This document shows positions 26,629-53,810 of a stretch of 64,000 bases of DNA, piece by piece. This stretch comes from an uncultured Lachnospiraceae bacterium. GTDB taxonomy: Bacteria > Bacillota > Clostridia > Lachnospirales > Lachnospiraceae. A program made the translations under genes and the position numbers. The stretch covers positions 1 through 64,000 of the forward strand of contig CATLAK010000005.1 of assembly GCA_949878435.1 (NCBI GenBank). The letters are read 5' to 3'. The notes beneath the pieces are model-generated. The model made no database searches and was not told the origin of the DNA. It worked only from the letters and a program-made list of their open reading frames with translations. Positions within the stretch are counted from its first letter, which is position 1. Each line of letters starts with the position of its first letter.

Positions 26629-27033
26629 AGCCCAGCAAAGATGGATGCCAGCGTCCGTTTCCGTTAGCCGGGGCTGACAGGACAGCGCGCCGCAGGGCTT
26701 AAGGGCAGAGAGCGCACGGCAGGCGGCATACCGTATCGTTTCAAGTCCCTGCGAAAAATCGGCAATTTCACTTACAGAATGTTGAATCCGTAGGGTGAAA
26801 TCGCCACGGATGGCGATTTCAGGAGCCAAATGGCATGGATGCCATCTTGGCTCCGCCCCGACCGCGTTGAAACACCTATATACATTCTGTTAGTGAAATC
26901 CGATTTTGAGAAAAGACTTGAAACGATACTGTATGCCGCCTGCTGTGCGCCCTCTGCCCTTAAGCCCTGCGGCGCGCTGTCCTGTCAGCTTCGGCTAATG
27001 GAAACGGACGCTGGCATCCATCTTTGCCGGGCT
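26629..27033 (+). repeat. Long-hairpin element, copy 1
   Basis: A 405-bp inverted repeat. The conserved core is 26722-26940, from GGCGGCA to TGCCGCC, 219 bp, shared with copies at 41186-41404 and 53290-53509 (inverted). Outside the core, 26629-26721 and 26941-27033 pair with each other at about 95% but resemble neither other copy. Two hairpins sit at the apex: AATCGCCA/TGGCGATT near 26800-26819 and GGAGCCAA/TTGGCTCC at 26822-26853. Open frames of 72 codons on both strands are mirror shadows of the arms. The right end lies six bases from the stop of the M56 gene. Confidence 0.9.
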
Positions 27034-27038
27034 CCCCC

Positions 27039-29501
27039 TCACGGGTGAAACCGCCCCCTTCCTTCAGCAATCTCCTGTGCCTCCTTTATAAATCGGTCAT
27101 ATTCCTCCTGGGTCGTTGTCACGATTCCTTCTCCGTCTTCATCACTAAATCCAAAATCATAAACTTCCCACGGAATCTGCGCCCCGTCCCACCACTGCGC
27201 GGGAGGAAGATCGTTGTGGAAAAATCCATCCACATACCATCCGTCATCCCCTTTTTTCAGATAAAGGAACCGCTCCACAGATGCCCCGTTGTCCGGCAGT
27301 TCCAGAACGCCGCTGTCCCCGAACACAAGGTTTACTTGAAACAGCGCGCTTTTGCCTTCTTCATCCACCACAAGTTCCCTGCCCGACAAGAATACCTTTA
27401 CTGTCCGCCAGGCATCCTGCATCTCCGCATCCAAGGGTGTGTTTGAAAGAAGTGAAATCATATATGGATTCAATCCGAAATGCTCTGTAAAAAGCCACGC
27501 TGTCTGCTCCGCTTTCTCCCCTGCCTTTTCAACGGCTTTTGCCGCCTGCTCTTTCATTGCCTGATCCGTTTCTTTTATAAGGTCAGAAGAAACATATTGT
27601 TTATCCGGATAATATAATTCATGCAGACGCGCAAGCTCCTCTTCCCACTCCAAACTAAGCAGCGCATACCCCACACTGCATTCTAAGTAGACAGACCGTC
27701 CCAATTCCTCCTGAATAAATACCTCCCCCTCTATAATTTCCTTTCCTTCCTTTTGAAACAGCGTACAGACCACATGTTTCCACCTATCCAGCTTGCCAAA
27801 ATAGCCTGCCGTTCCATACCTGACCTGCAGATAGCTGGCTATCTGGATCCCATTCAATAGCTGCTCTCCGCTTTCAATAACCTGATTTTCCGAAAGATCC
27901 CCATTGCCGGTTAACATAAGTTGGTAATTGTTGATATGCTGGATTTCTTCCTCTCTCACATCTACCATGATTCCTCCGGCTTGGTCCACCCTTTCCATGA
28001 GTTCATTATATTCCCACACTTCTATTTCTTCCAGATCAAGCGCCAGATTCTGATTCAGAACCGCAAGGATTTCCTGGTCCGTATATTTCTCCAATATTTC
28101 TTCCAGCTTGCATCCCTCTCCCGCAAGATCTGTCAAATATAAATCGTCTGAAATCAATACCACGTATCTTTCATCCCCATGGTTCTGATCAGGACCGGGC
28201 AGTAACAGAATCACCGCTCCCTGCAGATTCCCGTTTAGTCCTTCTCCCGTTCCCTTTACTGCCACCGCCTCTCCGGTAAAGAAATCCTTTTCTACCGGGG
28301 AGGGCTCTACCGCTCCGGTTTCTTCCTGTCCCGGATTTGTTTCCACGGTCCTCAAATTGCTTTCAGAAACTTCCTCCTTTGCAGCAAGACCTCCCGTATA
28401 AGTGCACCCAGCCATAAGGAAAATAGAAATAACCAGAATGACCAACGCTGCTATGCTGGTTTTTCTTTTCTGCGCAATCTCTTCCATTCGTCTTCTCATA
28501 AATGCTTTTCCTCCGGTCATCATGGTTGCCGTTTTTAATACCTGTTCTTTCTCCTTTGACTGCATAATCATTGCAAGAAGGGTCTCCCCATAGTCACAGC
28601 GCTTTTCTTCCCCCAGTCTGCGCAGGCAGCCTGCATCGCAGGCAAGTTCTCCATCACGCAAAGACAGTCTTGCTGCAATCCACACAAGCGGATTGTACCA
28701 GTTTATGACAAGGCACAGGCTTCTGACAAGCGCCCATATATGATCCCCGTGTTTGTAATGCATAAGTTCATGCATCAAGATGAAATCAAGCTGCTCTGCG
28801 TCCTTTCGCTCTTCACATTCCCAGGGAATATAAATTGCCGGCAAAAGCCCGAACAGACAAGGGGATGAAAGCCTGTCTCCTATCAGGAACACAGGAATCC
28901 TGCTTTTGCCTGTCAGTGATTCAGGCAGTCTCTTCCTCACAGACTTAAGGTAATGATAAAAGGAAAGATTCTGCCACAGGAAAACCAATGCAGTCACCAC
29001 CATTCCCACCATCCATACCCTGCATGCTGCCAGTTTGATTTTCCCAAAGAGCGTTCCTGGCGCCTGCTGCTTCAATTCTATGGATTCGGTAGAAACCGCC
29101 TCCCTTTCCTGATCTTTTCCATTTTCTTCTACGCCAGCCTCTATGCCTTTACTGTCCTGCACAGTCAGGTCCATATCCTCCCCCTGCGTCCAGTTATTTT
29201 CCGCTCCGGCAGCCTTTAGGCTTTCTTCTGTTAAATGGTCATAATATGCCTGATACTGCTGCATCTTATATTCCAGGTCCTGCCTGTCCGCTTCTTCTTC
29301 CACCATGCGGCTTCCGGTACTCCAAACTGCCGTATTCATTACACTGATCGGACTGTAAAAGAGTACCCCAGGCATCAAAAGACGCAGCGCCGCAAGCAGC
29401 CAGATCGGATATAGGATCAGCGGACTTATTTTTTTCCTAAAAATTGCTCTTATAAGCAAAATTCCTGCTATCAGCAGCGAGGATGTAACGATTCTCGTCA
29501 T
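27039..29501 (-). CDS. M56 (BlaR1-type) metallopeptidase fused to an LCP-like domain
   Basis: An 820-residue protein. Residues 1-50 and 150-300 form a BlaR1/MecR1-like M56 membrane peptidase with MHELMHYKHGDH (HExxH near 244) and a downstream GELACDAG glutamate. A transmembrane segment near 349-366 then leads to an external region. At about 420-600 this looks like a LytR-CpsA-Psr domain: LNQNLALDLEEIEVW, DQAGGIMVDV and LNGIQIASYLQVR followed by DRWKHVV. The C-terminal 200 residues are unrecognised. BlaR1 proteins normally end in a penicillin-binding sensor; here the sensor slot seems to be LCP-like. It is cotranscribed after BlaI (19-base gap), so signal-induced cleavage of BlaI is the likely output. 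Confidence 0.85.
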   Translation of the reverse strand: MTRIVTSSLLIAGILLIRAIFRKKISPLILYPIWLLAALRLLMPGVLFYSPISVMNTAVWSTGSRMVEEEADRQDLEYKMQQYQAYYDHLTEESLKAAGAENNWTQGEDMDLTVQDSKGIEAGVEENGKDQEREAVSTESIELKQQAPGTLFGKIKLAACRVWMVGMVVTALVFLWQNLSFYHYLKSVRKRLPESLTGKSRIPVFLIGDRLSSPCLFGLLPAIYIPWECEERKDAEQLDFILMHELMHYKHGDHIWALVRSLCLVINWYNPLVWIAARLSLRDGELACDAGCLRRLGEEKRCDYGETLLAMIMQSKEKEQVLKTATMMTGGKAFMRRRMEEIAQKRKTSIAALVILVISIFLMAGCTYTGGLAAKEEVSESNLRTVETNPGQEETGAVEPSPVEKDFFTGEAVAVKGTGEGLNGNLQGAVILLLPGPDQNHGDERYVVLISDDLYLTDLAGEGCKLEEILEKYTDQEILAVLNQNLALDLEEIEVWEYNELMERVDQAGGIMVDVREEEIQHINNYQLMLTGNGDLSENQVIESGEQLLNGIQIASYLQVRYGTAGYFGKLDRWKHVVCTLFQKEGKEIIEGEVFIQEELGRSVYLECSVGYALLSLEWEEELARLHELYYPDKQYVSSDLIKETDQAMKEQAAKAVEKAGEKAEQTAWLFTEHFGLNPYMISLLSNTPLDAEMQDAWRTVKVFLSGRELVVDEEGKSALFQVNLVFGDSGVLELPDNGASVERFLYLKKGDDGWYVDGFFHNDLPPAQWWDGAQIPWEVYDFGFSDEDGEGIVTTTQEEYDRFIKEAQEIAEGRGRFHP

Positions 29502-40767: not shown

Positions 40768-41095
40768 AGGAGAACCGTTCCAGAATCTCCTGCTTATTTA
40801 GATTGTTGATTGAAATAAAAAGCATGGATTTTCTGAAAGCTTAATTATAGATGAATTGAGATGTTGCTTGATAGGAGCAAATGGATACACACGATGAAAA
40901 CCCATCTGCACGAAAGAAAAATATGCTTTTTATTATCATAGCACATTTTGATTGAAATTGTAAATATATTTTCTCTTTTTATTGCAGATATTTATGACAT
41001 ATTAATGACTAAAAGCCGAAGGCTAGCCTATTGCTAAACTCTTCCACTTCCATTCTTTTTGCAGGTAAGAATATCCAGTTAGGGAAGCCAAGAGC

Positions 41096-41492
41096 GGCAG
41101 AGGCAGGAATGGAACCCTCGCACAGGAAGATGTACCCTGGAGGCAGCAGTGCCGTAGGAGTGGAGGACGGGCTATACACAGGGGGGGCGGCACATCATAT
41201 CGTTTCAAGTTCCTGCGAAAAATCAGCAATTTCACTTACAGAATATTGAGTCCCTAGGGCAAAATCGCCATGGATGGCGATTTTAGGAGCCAAACGGCAT
41301 GGATGCCGTCTTGGCTCCGACCCGACCGCATTGAAACACCTGCACACATTCTGTTAGTGAAATCTGATTTTGAGAAGAGACTTGAAACGATATGATGTGC
41401 CGCCCCCTGTGTATAACCCGTCCTCCACTCCTACGGCACTGCTGCCTCCAGGGTACATCTTCCTGTGCAGGGGTTCCATTCCTGCCTCTGCC
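41096..41492 (+). repeat. Long-hairpin element, copy 2
   Basis: A 397-bp inverted repeat with the conserved core at 41186-41404 (219 bp). The outer arms 41096-41185 and 41405-41492 pair with each other with three small differences but do not resemble the arms of the other copies. Apical hairpins: AAAATCGCCA/TGGCGATTTT near 41261-41284 and GGAGCCAA/TTGGCTCC at 41286-41317. It has the same orientation as copy 1. Its right end lies 23 bases from the stop of the ATPase gene. The rest of the gap 40768-41095 holds no gene that I can support. Confidence 0.9.
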
Positions 41493-41515
41493 ACTCCTTT
41501 CCCCTCCTGCAACTC

Positions 41516-53058: not shown

Positions 53059-53228
53059 GTAGGTCTAATATACAACAGATTTCTTTATTTGTAAATAATG
53101 AATATTTCGGAAATCGTCAGATTATTTGTCAATTCTTTCTATGAGCGCTAATTGTTTTAATATTGTTTTAGTTTTCTTCATCACACGTATCGTACCGTAC
53201 AATTTATTCTGACACATAGACGGTTTGA

Positions 53229-53570
53229 GTAACAGTTCAGCCTGCAAGTACAGGAGAGCAGTTTGGAGAGCGGATGGCTCAGCGCAGATGGCGGCACACC
53301 TTATCTTTTCCAGTCTCCTCTCAAAATCGGATTTCACTAGCAGAATGTATATAGGTATTTCAGGACGGTCGGGTCGGATCCAAGACGGCATCCATGCCGT
53401 TTGGATCCTAAAATCGCCATCCATGGCGATTTTGCCCTGGGTATCCTCACATTCTGTAAGTGAAATTGCCGATTTTTCGCAGAGACTGGAAAAGATAAGG
53501 TGTGCCGCCATCTGCGCTGAGCCATCCGCTCTCCAAACTGCTCTCCTGTACTTGCAGGCTGAACTGTTAC
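53229..53570 (-). repeat. Long-hairpin element, copy 3 (inverted)
   Basis: A 342-bp inverted repeat. The conserved core is 53290-53509 (220 bp), in opposite orientation to copies 1 and 2. The outer arms 53229-53289 and 53510-53570 are exact complements over 61 bp and unlike those of the other copies. The apical hairpins read GGATCCAA/TTGGATCC and AAAATCGCCA/TGGCGATTTT, so the first differs from the GGAGCC/GGCTCC form by a compensating base pair. It lies between the gltB leader and the ncRNA promoter, 30 bases from the latter. Confidence 0.9.
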
Positions 53571-53599
53571 CGGTTTGAAACAAAAAAACTGATAAACAA

Positions 53600-53634: not shown

Positions 53635-53810
53635 ACCATACAGGTAACGGAGTGTACCTGTTTAAGCGTTGATATAAGGGAGTGTGCCGGTATGCATTGC
53701 CTTATAGAGCTTGCAAGAGGGGTTGGGCAATGAAACCTCAAACCGGCGTAGGCTGAAAAGCTGAAAGAAAATGCCCTAAAGGTCCTGCCATAACGGCAGG
53801 ACCTTTGTCA
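53635..53810 (+). ncRNA. Structured non-coding RNA of unknown class (about 175 nt)
   Basis: A perfect promoter and an end hairpin (AAAGGTCCTGCC/GGCAGGACCTTT, 53778-53806) bound a region without a credible open frame. Local stems include ACAGGTA/TACCTGT near the 5' end and GCCGGT/ACCGGC enclosing ATTGCC/GGCAAT in the middle. GGAGTGT or GGGAGTGT recurs twice in unpaired positions. I could not match it to 6S, SRP, tmRNA or RNase P features I know. It might instead be a long leader for the PBECR4 gene that starts at 53857, but the terminal hairpin and perfect promoter favour a free RNA. Confidence 0.65.

Follow-up and report, generated by a model that had tools for sequence, protein, structure and literature searches.

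TwoAYGGAY cores in long, dispersed DNA hairpins of one Lachnospiraceae genus: probable palindromic MITEs with two kinds of transposon ends and arms that change in concert

The window analyzed here, a 64,000-nucleotide stretch of DNA from an uncultured Lachnospiraceae bacterium, contains three long hairpins, each with a core of 219, 219 or 220 bp that starts with GGCGGCA and ends with TGCCGCC. Our analysis confirmed both these cores and the nearly perfect inverted arms around them. The best named hits of one protein encoded in the window are to metagenome genomes of Lachnospiraceae, which agrees with this family. Copy 1 lies on the forward strand, with a left arm at 26629..26721 (93 bp, 87/93 complementary to the right arm), a 219-bp core at 26722..26940 and a right arm at 26941..27033; a gene for a Peptidase_M56-domain protein (27039-29501, reverse strand) has its end 5 bp to the right of that arm. 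Folded as a single strand, 26629-27033 yields -325.9 kcal/mol; 100 shuffled versions average -139.7 (sd 5.7), which gives z = -32.8. Copy 2, also on the forward strand, consists of a left arm at 41092..41185 (94 bp, 96% complementary), a 219-bp core at 41186..41404 and a right arm at 41405..41496; under a looser alignment, which extends the left arm to 41061, the arms measure 125 and 119 bp and are 88% complementary. Copy 3 is on the reverse strand, with a 220-bp core (53290..53509) between one arm at 53229..53289, bearing at its end the IS66-like terminus GTAACAGTTCAGCCTGCAAG, and a second arm at 53510..53570 (61 bp, 61/61 complementary to the first). Its termini read GTAACAG...CTGTTAC and are flanked on both sides by CGGTTTGA (53221..53228 and 53571..53578), i.e. 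an IS66-type GTAA end and an 8-bp target-site duplication are both present. The second arm of copy 3 has 26 matches in its own genome, including itself, its partner arm and partial matches, and some of these occur without a core. About 90 bp from copy 3 there is a drum RNA (RF02958, 95.5 bits; 53664-53779, forward strand), and a gene encoding a PBECR4 nuclease-like domain (PF18813; 53857-54480, forward strand) adjoins both.

The core belongs to Rfam family RF01731, TwoAYGGAY (clan CL00106): all three window copies exceed the curated cut-off of 43 bits (26749-26913, 84.5 bits; 41213-41377, 75.8 bits; 53317-53482, 85.8 bits), and the core matches listed range from 64.6 to 129 bits. The statement of the earlier note that no described family has this design does not hold for the core, which is already catalogued as RF01731 and listed in PMC2864571. 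There, Weinberg et al. graded TwoAYGGAY in 2010 as "probably RNA, probably not cis-regulatory"; the Rfam record gives the type as Cis-reg and describes an RNA of unknown function. According to PMC4333381, the motif is predicted to bind CsrA and is proposed to act as a CsrA sponge, and PMC7657543 places both drum and TwoAYGGAY among the families whose annotated helix was lengthened by further covarying base pairs. The passages on this motif that we found in the literature, mostly in non-subscription papers, mention neither mobility nor long inverted arms.

We found at least 58 elements in the genome from which the window comes (3.4 Mb) and collected 137 from six genomes of the genus. The first collection from the own genome comprised 44 copies and grew to 58 when diverged copies were added; partial cores (profile start >60 or end <180) were excluded before the set of 137 was fixed, and elements found later in loci of G013, G034 and G009 are left out of it and of all counts based on it. 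Searched at the DNA level, the own genome (51 contigs, 86% complete) yielded 88 matches, which include reverse-strand matches due to the palindrome, with 40 of 94 candidates scored. Two core types can be distinguished: type I resembles the window copies (n = 69) and type II is diverged (n = 68, 53 of them in G019 and G035). At least one hairpin with an AYGGAY loop was recognized in 66/69 type-I and 66/68 type-II elements by a pattern limited to such loops; by the simple loop pattern, 58 of the 69 type-I elements have two terminal AYGGAY loops and 66 of the 68 type-II elements only one. The search of related genomes that the earlier note had proposed detected RF01731 in at least 17 of 60 genomes including our own (16 over the cut-off), all 17 of them in one genus, where the core is dispersed; among the candidates scored (at most 38 per genome), none was found in 24 genomes from other families of the order.

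The 44 first-collected copies are dispersed and non-coding; they occupy the gaps between mechanically called ORFs or lie at ORF edges. Inverted arms continue beyond the core in 43 of them, and in the six-genome set arms reach at least 20 bp past the core stem in 66/69 type-I and 61/68 type-II elements, whose total lengths are 182-565 bp. In two loci (L262 and L282, from G019 and G035) type-II elements occur near the RNase P RNA gene, and one of them ends about 35 bp from the 3' end of this RNA.

In elements with recognizable ends the outermost 14-20 bp are transposon termini of one of two kinds: GTAACAG, in some cases with 8-bp target duplications (A, IS66-like), and CAATGTCATTAAGTTAAG, in some cases with 10-bp duplications (B, IS4-like). 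Both ends were scored as one of these kinds in only 23 of the 137 elements, 13 with A and 10 with B ends. With boundaries set by the end motif, the 8-bp flanks of the A-ended elements match at 8, 7, 7, 7, 6, 6, 5, 4, 4, 3, 2, 1 and 1 of 8 positions (permuted mean 2.0) and the 10-bp flanks of the B-ended elements at 10, 9, 8, 6, 5, 4, 4, 2, 2 and 2 of 10 (permuted mean 2.5). The mean flank match was reached by none of 20000 permutations in either set. Near-perfect target duplications are present in 7 of the 23 end-defined elements, namely 7-8/8 repeats in 4 of the 13 IS66-like-ended ones (permutation mean 0.15, maximum 2 in 20000) and 8-10/10 repeats in 3 of the 10 IS4-like-ended ones (permutation maximum 0). 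When arm ends were instead defined by alignment, duplications of 8-9 bp were mostly absent from 43 copies: 7 or 8 of 8 positions matched in 4/43 (of 301 controls, 1.7% had 7 and none had 8), and at 9 bp there was nothing. Window copies 1 and 2 showed neither recognizable ends nor a target duplication, and their putative membership in the family is read from the core and arms alone.

In six sister genomes the B end also bounds a complete insertion sequence (1.57-1.73 kb), the open frame of which has 434-452 aa; in five of the six it is flanked by 9-10-bp target repeats. Two of the six transposases were scanned with Pfam and both matched DDE_Tnp_1; one was scanned with NCBIfam and was assigned to the IS4 family (176 bits versus a cut-off of 115). 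Target duplications of about 10 bp are the rule for that family (PMC2266710). In the own genome, with up to 1 mismatch allowed and an assembly that is 86% complete, we found no two B ends as far apart as those of the complete element. The B terminus also occupies the first bases of many contigs (C6, C8, C12, C42 and C54 of G034, and several contig ends of G001 and G009), as expected of an IS4-type element whose several identical copies break the assembly. Support for an IS66 partner is weaker than for the IS4 partner. IS66 elements have 5'-GTAA ends and 8-bp repeats (PMC11946415), and an end variant GTAACCG is recorded in the family (PMC12888890). Our search for a complete IS66 with matching ends retrieved only a PF03050 (IS66) fragment in G035 (L231), with GTAACTGTTCAG 6 bp past its stop; the frame stops at 1554 and CTGAACAGTTAC occupies 1561-1572. 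As a possible source of GTAACAG, IS66 loci were sought in nine genomes, seven of which had IS66 matches; among the loci retrieved, some of which do not extend to both ends of their element, the full end match was confined to L231. The sole IS66 transposase of the own genome precedes a different end, GTAAGCG.

An ordinary MITE, the earlier note argued, would carry the same terminal repeats in every copy. The end-bearing members do share terminal repeats, some with target duplications, and it is the arm between terminus and core that varies; the terminal repeats common to the complete IS4-family elements are found on both sides in 10/137 elements, which do not include copies 1 and 2. Arm relatedness was compared for the left arms of 127 of the 137 elements (10 with short arms were left out): 59 have a counterpart in the arm of one or more other elements, and 68 match none of those collected. 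The arm of copy 3 matches eight other elements, that of copy 2 only its counterpart in G008, and that of copy 1 none; the outer ~60 bp of the left arm of copy 1 matched only itself in the own genome (40 of 94 candidates scored). The view that arms of different copies are unrelated is thus correct for the three copies in the window and incorrect for the family. Sharing of arms across the genome, which the earlier note regarded as evidence against its reading, was found for copy 3 and its subfamily and not for copies 1 and 2. The arms of subfamily A terminate in GTAACAGTTCAGCCTGCAAG or a near variant, and those of subfamily B in CAATGTCATTAAGTTAAG or a near variant. In L030, an A end precedes inner arms of the B type, so similar inner hairpins occur with different termini. 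A motif of the inner arm reached significance in 20 of 43 copies, among which window copies 1 (p 0.05) and 2 (p 0.09) are not included.

Within a copy, the two arms change in concert, as expected if each is corrected from the other. In elements whose stem extends 45 bp or more past the anchor, mismatches between the outer arms of the same copy amount to 5.0% (236/4754) in type I and 3.4% (109/3233) in type II, and the arms of different copies differ by 18% per arm in subfamily A and by 15% in subfamily B. Across 1626 pair-columns of the eight subfamily A copies we counted 264 differences that affect both arms and 70 that affect one arm, where independence predicts 21 and 489; the five copies of subfamily B (754 pair-columns) gave 106 and 20, where 7 and 196 are predicted, and the pair-columns of either comparison are not mutually independent. 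The closest pairs give mixed counts of two-arm and one-arm differences (copy 3-L029, 3/1; copy 3-L033, 9/0; copy 3-L021, 2/3; L021-L036, 3/6), from which we conclude that correction is fast but not instant. The left arms of type I are asymmetric in composition (G 40%, C 21%). Symmetric tandem blocks appear in both arms of L025 and L030; we considered them as proof of arm copying and rejected them, as nesting explains them equally well.

The core does not look neutral: the AYGGAY loops recur and its orientation is biased. With genes called mechanically (the longest ORF within 800 bp, minimum 90 codons), a gene stop lies within 40 bp on the 3' side of 31/69 type-I elements and on the 5' side of 4/69 (three have both; p = 3e-6, a value that, like others across related species and subfamilies, is too small as the sequences are not independent). 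The corresponding numbers for type I in the own genome are 21/48 and 3/48, and type II shows no orientation (21/68 and 18/68). Neighboring elements at most 300 bp apart are arranged "-" then "+" in 19 of 20 pairs, and none of all 27 element pairs within 1500 bp is arranged "+" then "-"; among 19 spacers compared, no cross-match at E 0.01 pointed to a shared spacer (promoter) between paired elements. A symmetrical MITE should insert either way, so an account of these elements as MITEs still lacks either a function under selection or a process with a direction; since symmetry leaves a transposon no choice of orientation, the direction of the core is probably selected. Of 37 genomes of the genus, 33 were found to encode CsrA, including G013, G019, G035 and G009, and was not found in G000, G034, G016 and G033; G000 and G034 are element-rich, and their incomplete assemblies may explain the absence. 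As a functional test, co-occurrence with CsrA was therefore uninformative or contrary.

A few elements are nested. L034 has a B-ended, core-bearing hairpin enclosed by a further pair of arms, each about 72 bp long, and these outer arms recur at G000 C5:112789-112996 (L336; 79% and 77%), where they abut half a core without a B end. In L296 an A-like end is located just outside the B end, and in L276, too, the arms continue for about 75 bp outside a B end. Some palindromes lack a core but have identical or similar ends (L180, L181, L185, L186, L206, L207 and L250). Those of G000, with A- or B-like ends and some target repeats, lie at positions 734-829 of L180, 710-751 of L181, 731-788 of L185, 748-860 of L186 and 524-695 of L250, and they are either smaller MITEs or deletion derivatives of the hairpins. 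Repeats around A-ended core-less hairpins, as judged by eye, match at 8/8 positions in L206 (AAAGTTTT), at 7/8 in L207 and over 9 bp in L180 (CCATTCTTA). In L180 the left arm is still followed by the initial bases of the core, so this palindrome looks like a deletion derivative.

Comparison with sister genomes revealed a site without the element. In G008 the left flank of copy 1 matches up to 26591 and the right flank from 27055, with 13 bp between them, and both core and arms are absent; the flanks are 89% and 99% identical, a disparity that makes recombination nearby likely, so that the empty state in G008 need not be ancestral. In G013 this site is occupied by a hairpin that has other arms and a partial core without AYGGAY hairpins, and G009 has two elements beside the matching left flank. 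The insertion of copy 2 is also present in G008 (L254; 99.6% over 2.1 kb), as is the part of copy 3 from 53475 on, the G008 contig starting inside the element. A separate dispersed repeat with arms of about 87 bp occurs in G032 and G031 (e.g. L242, L303 and L314-L320), with 22 and 26 matches in the two genomes. In L242 of G032, a complete IS4-family element is situated between 87-bp inverted flanks; we do not take this locus as proof of insertion into a palindrome, since its arms are the dispersed repeat of both genomes and the G031 site is not symmetrical over equal length.

On these grounds we regard the elements as probably palindromic MITEs that have a TwoAYGGAY core and are mobilized in trans by two or more transposases, with arms kept complementary by mutual correction and some copies nested. 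Transposases of the IS66 and IS4 types would move the hairpins in trans, and elements lacking recognizable ends would be older, decayed hairpins. After insertion, a mutation in one arm would be copied into, or erased from, the other arm, the likeliest process being a template switch of the replication fork at the hairpin; the arms of different copies would then drift apart until the core alone can be recognized, and insertion of one hairpin into another would account for the extra arm layers of a few cases. What is new here is the setting of a known RNA motif, namely probable palindromic MITEs whose arms correct themselves and whose transposon ends are of two kinds; transposition in trans, the copying process and any function of the core are predictions.

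Alternatively, selection on RNA could keep the arms paired, if the elements are long hairpin RNAs that serve as CsrA sponges or stabilize 3' ends; compensatory changes would then reflect ordinary RNA evolution. The AYGGAY loop that recurs in nearly all elements of both types is a CsrA-type motif, the published prediction of CsrA binding (PMC4333381) agrees with such a role, and the position of type-I elements is oriented relative to stop codons, but those beside stops are mostly antisense to the gene concerned (31 versus 4), type-II elements are without orientation (21 versus 18), CsrA was not found in 4 of the 37 genomes, including the element-rich though incompletely assembled G000 and G034, and arms of mostly 50-100 bp would be longer than a protein-binding hairpin should need. 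Selection on an RNA stem should leave more G·U than A·C mismatches, so arms without such an excess favor a DNA process. In the arms of elements that passed the 45-bp stem limit, we counted 76 G·U and 105 A·C mismatches in type I (p = 0.037, opposite to the expectation for RNA) and 34 and 35 in type II. In the AYGGAY stems of type II, up to four Watson-Crick types occur per pair, with 0 G·U and 0 A·C in 396 cells, and those of type I have 4 G·U in 744 pair cells (31 of the 35 A·C in type I come from one column that is not paired); these hairpins were required to have at least 4 of 6 inner Watson-Crick pairs, a filter that lowers G·U and A·C alike. By comparison, 24 distinct tRNAs encoded in the fetched loci have 20 G·U and only one A·C among the 256 pairs of their acceptor and T stems, which were included only if mostly Watson-Crick. 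The lack of a G·U excess favors copying of the arms at the DNA level over an RNA stem. With the same 45-bp stem limit, mismatches that would be wobble on the presumed transcribed strand are in slight excess (72 versus 49, p = 0.045), which agrees with the RNA explanation and is not predicted by a purely DNA-level account. We consider selection on RNA unlikely as the main cause of the pairing. The suggestion in the earlier note that the arms are maintained as a locus-specific stem is borne out as far as the maintained complementarity is concerned, and the mismatches favor DNA-level copying as its source.

Another possibility is that strand switching at insertion duplicates the flank in inverted form, the arms being host DNA. 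It agrees with the 68 of 127 arms that lack a match among those collected, with repeats of about 12-15 bp outside the IS4-like end that are inverted rather than direct (L214, L216 and, less perfectly, L296), and with the complete IS4-family element of G032 between its 87-bp inverted flanks; the latter, however, are a dispersed repeat for which no such mechanism is needed, and arms with recognizable ends are common to several loci. The one locus with an element-free allele, copy 1, also fails to support this option from the earlier note, as the G008 allele holds no arm sequence, with the reservation that its flank identities make recombination probable. We judge flank duplication to be improbable, even more so than selection on RNA. 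The earlier note further proposed that the core inserts into pre-existing palindromes, and homing of the core into the center of palindromes of other families would be consistent with the IS4-ended hairpin of L034 inside arms that abut half a core in L336, with the IS66-like end just outside the IS4-like end in L296, and with the existence of core-less palindromes. The few nested cases fit this proposal, but as a general origin we find it the least credible of the three, and very improbable, given that arm and core form one unit in the eight copies of subfamily A and that the core-less L180, with the first bases of the core still in place, looks like a deletion derivative.

As probable MITEs, the elements share with bacterial MITEs and foldback palindromes the short length (182-565 bp), the dispersal, the terminal inverted repeats and, in some, target duplications; they differ in that a single cargo appears under two unrelated termini, that a conserved structured core occupies the middle, and that the arms are almost wholly palindromic and evolve in concert. 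REP and BIME sequences are intergenic palindromes, often past stop codons and in inverted pairs. The present elements, too, are intergenic palindromes, many of them near stops and in inverted pairs, but they are about tenfold longer than REP palindromes (20-40 bp; PMC3733652), and some carry transposon ends. The B-ended hairpins have the end sequence and, in some, the 10-bp target duplications of the IS4-family element and are too short for a transposase gene. The A-ended ones have the 5'-GTAA ends and, in some, the 8-bp duplications described for the IS66 family (PMC11946415), with the difference that the sole partner found is a transposase fragment with a matching right end (L231). TwoAYGGAY itself is recognized by covariance-model scores over the cut-off and by two AYGGAY loops in most type-I elements, but here it forms the center of a dispersed DNA hairpin, with arms that are far longer and fast-changing and with pairs that vary nearly without G·U. 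Like CsrA-sequestering small RNAs of the CsrB/RsmZ type, the elements present GGA in hairpin loops; unlike what would be expected of such RNAs, CsrA was not found in two genomes where they are abundant (G000 and G034, both incomplete assemblies). Template switching is described in PMC8794818 for RNA genes, where it yields paired changes and asymmetric base-pair frequencies; the restoration of stem pairing by copying from arm to arm is the same, and the arms here are asymmetric too (the direction was not compared), but in our case the process is proposed for mobile DNA hairpins with much longer stems.

More tentatively, and with clearly less confidence than in the MITE interpretation, we speculate that TwoAYGGAY in this genus is a cargo that swaps transposase partners, that its RNA covariation is largely a by-product of palindrome correction in DNA, and that only the core loops and the orientation are selected. 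A terminus gained on one side by nesting or recombination would be copied to the other arm, and the hairpin would thereby become mobile with an unrelated transposase. If this is true, the covariation evidence for other multi-copy hairpin RNA families would in part need a control at the DNA level, for example the comparison of G·U with A·C mismatches. The standard argument for an RNA fold is paired substitution, and arms that change in concert far outside the motif, lacking the G·U excess of the tRNA stems, offer a testable case of covariation produced by DNA copying. Present in tens of copies across several genomes of a single genus, the elements provide a natural system for measuring the correction of long palindrome arms, and for asking how one small cargo acquires the ends of two unrelated transposon families.
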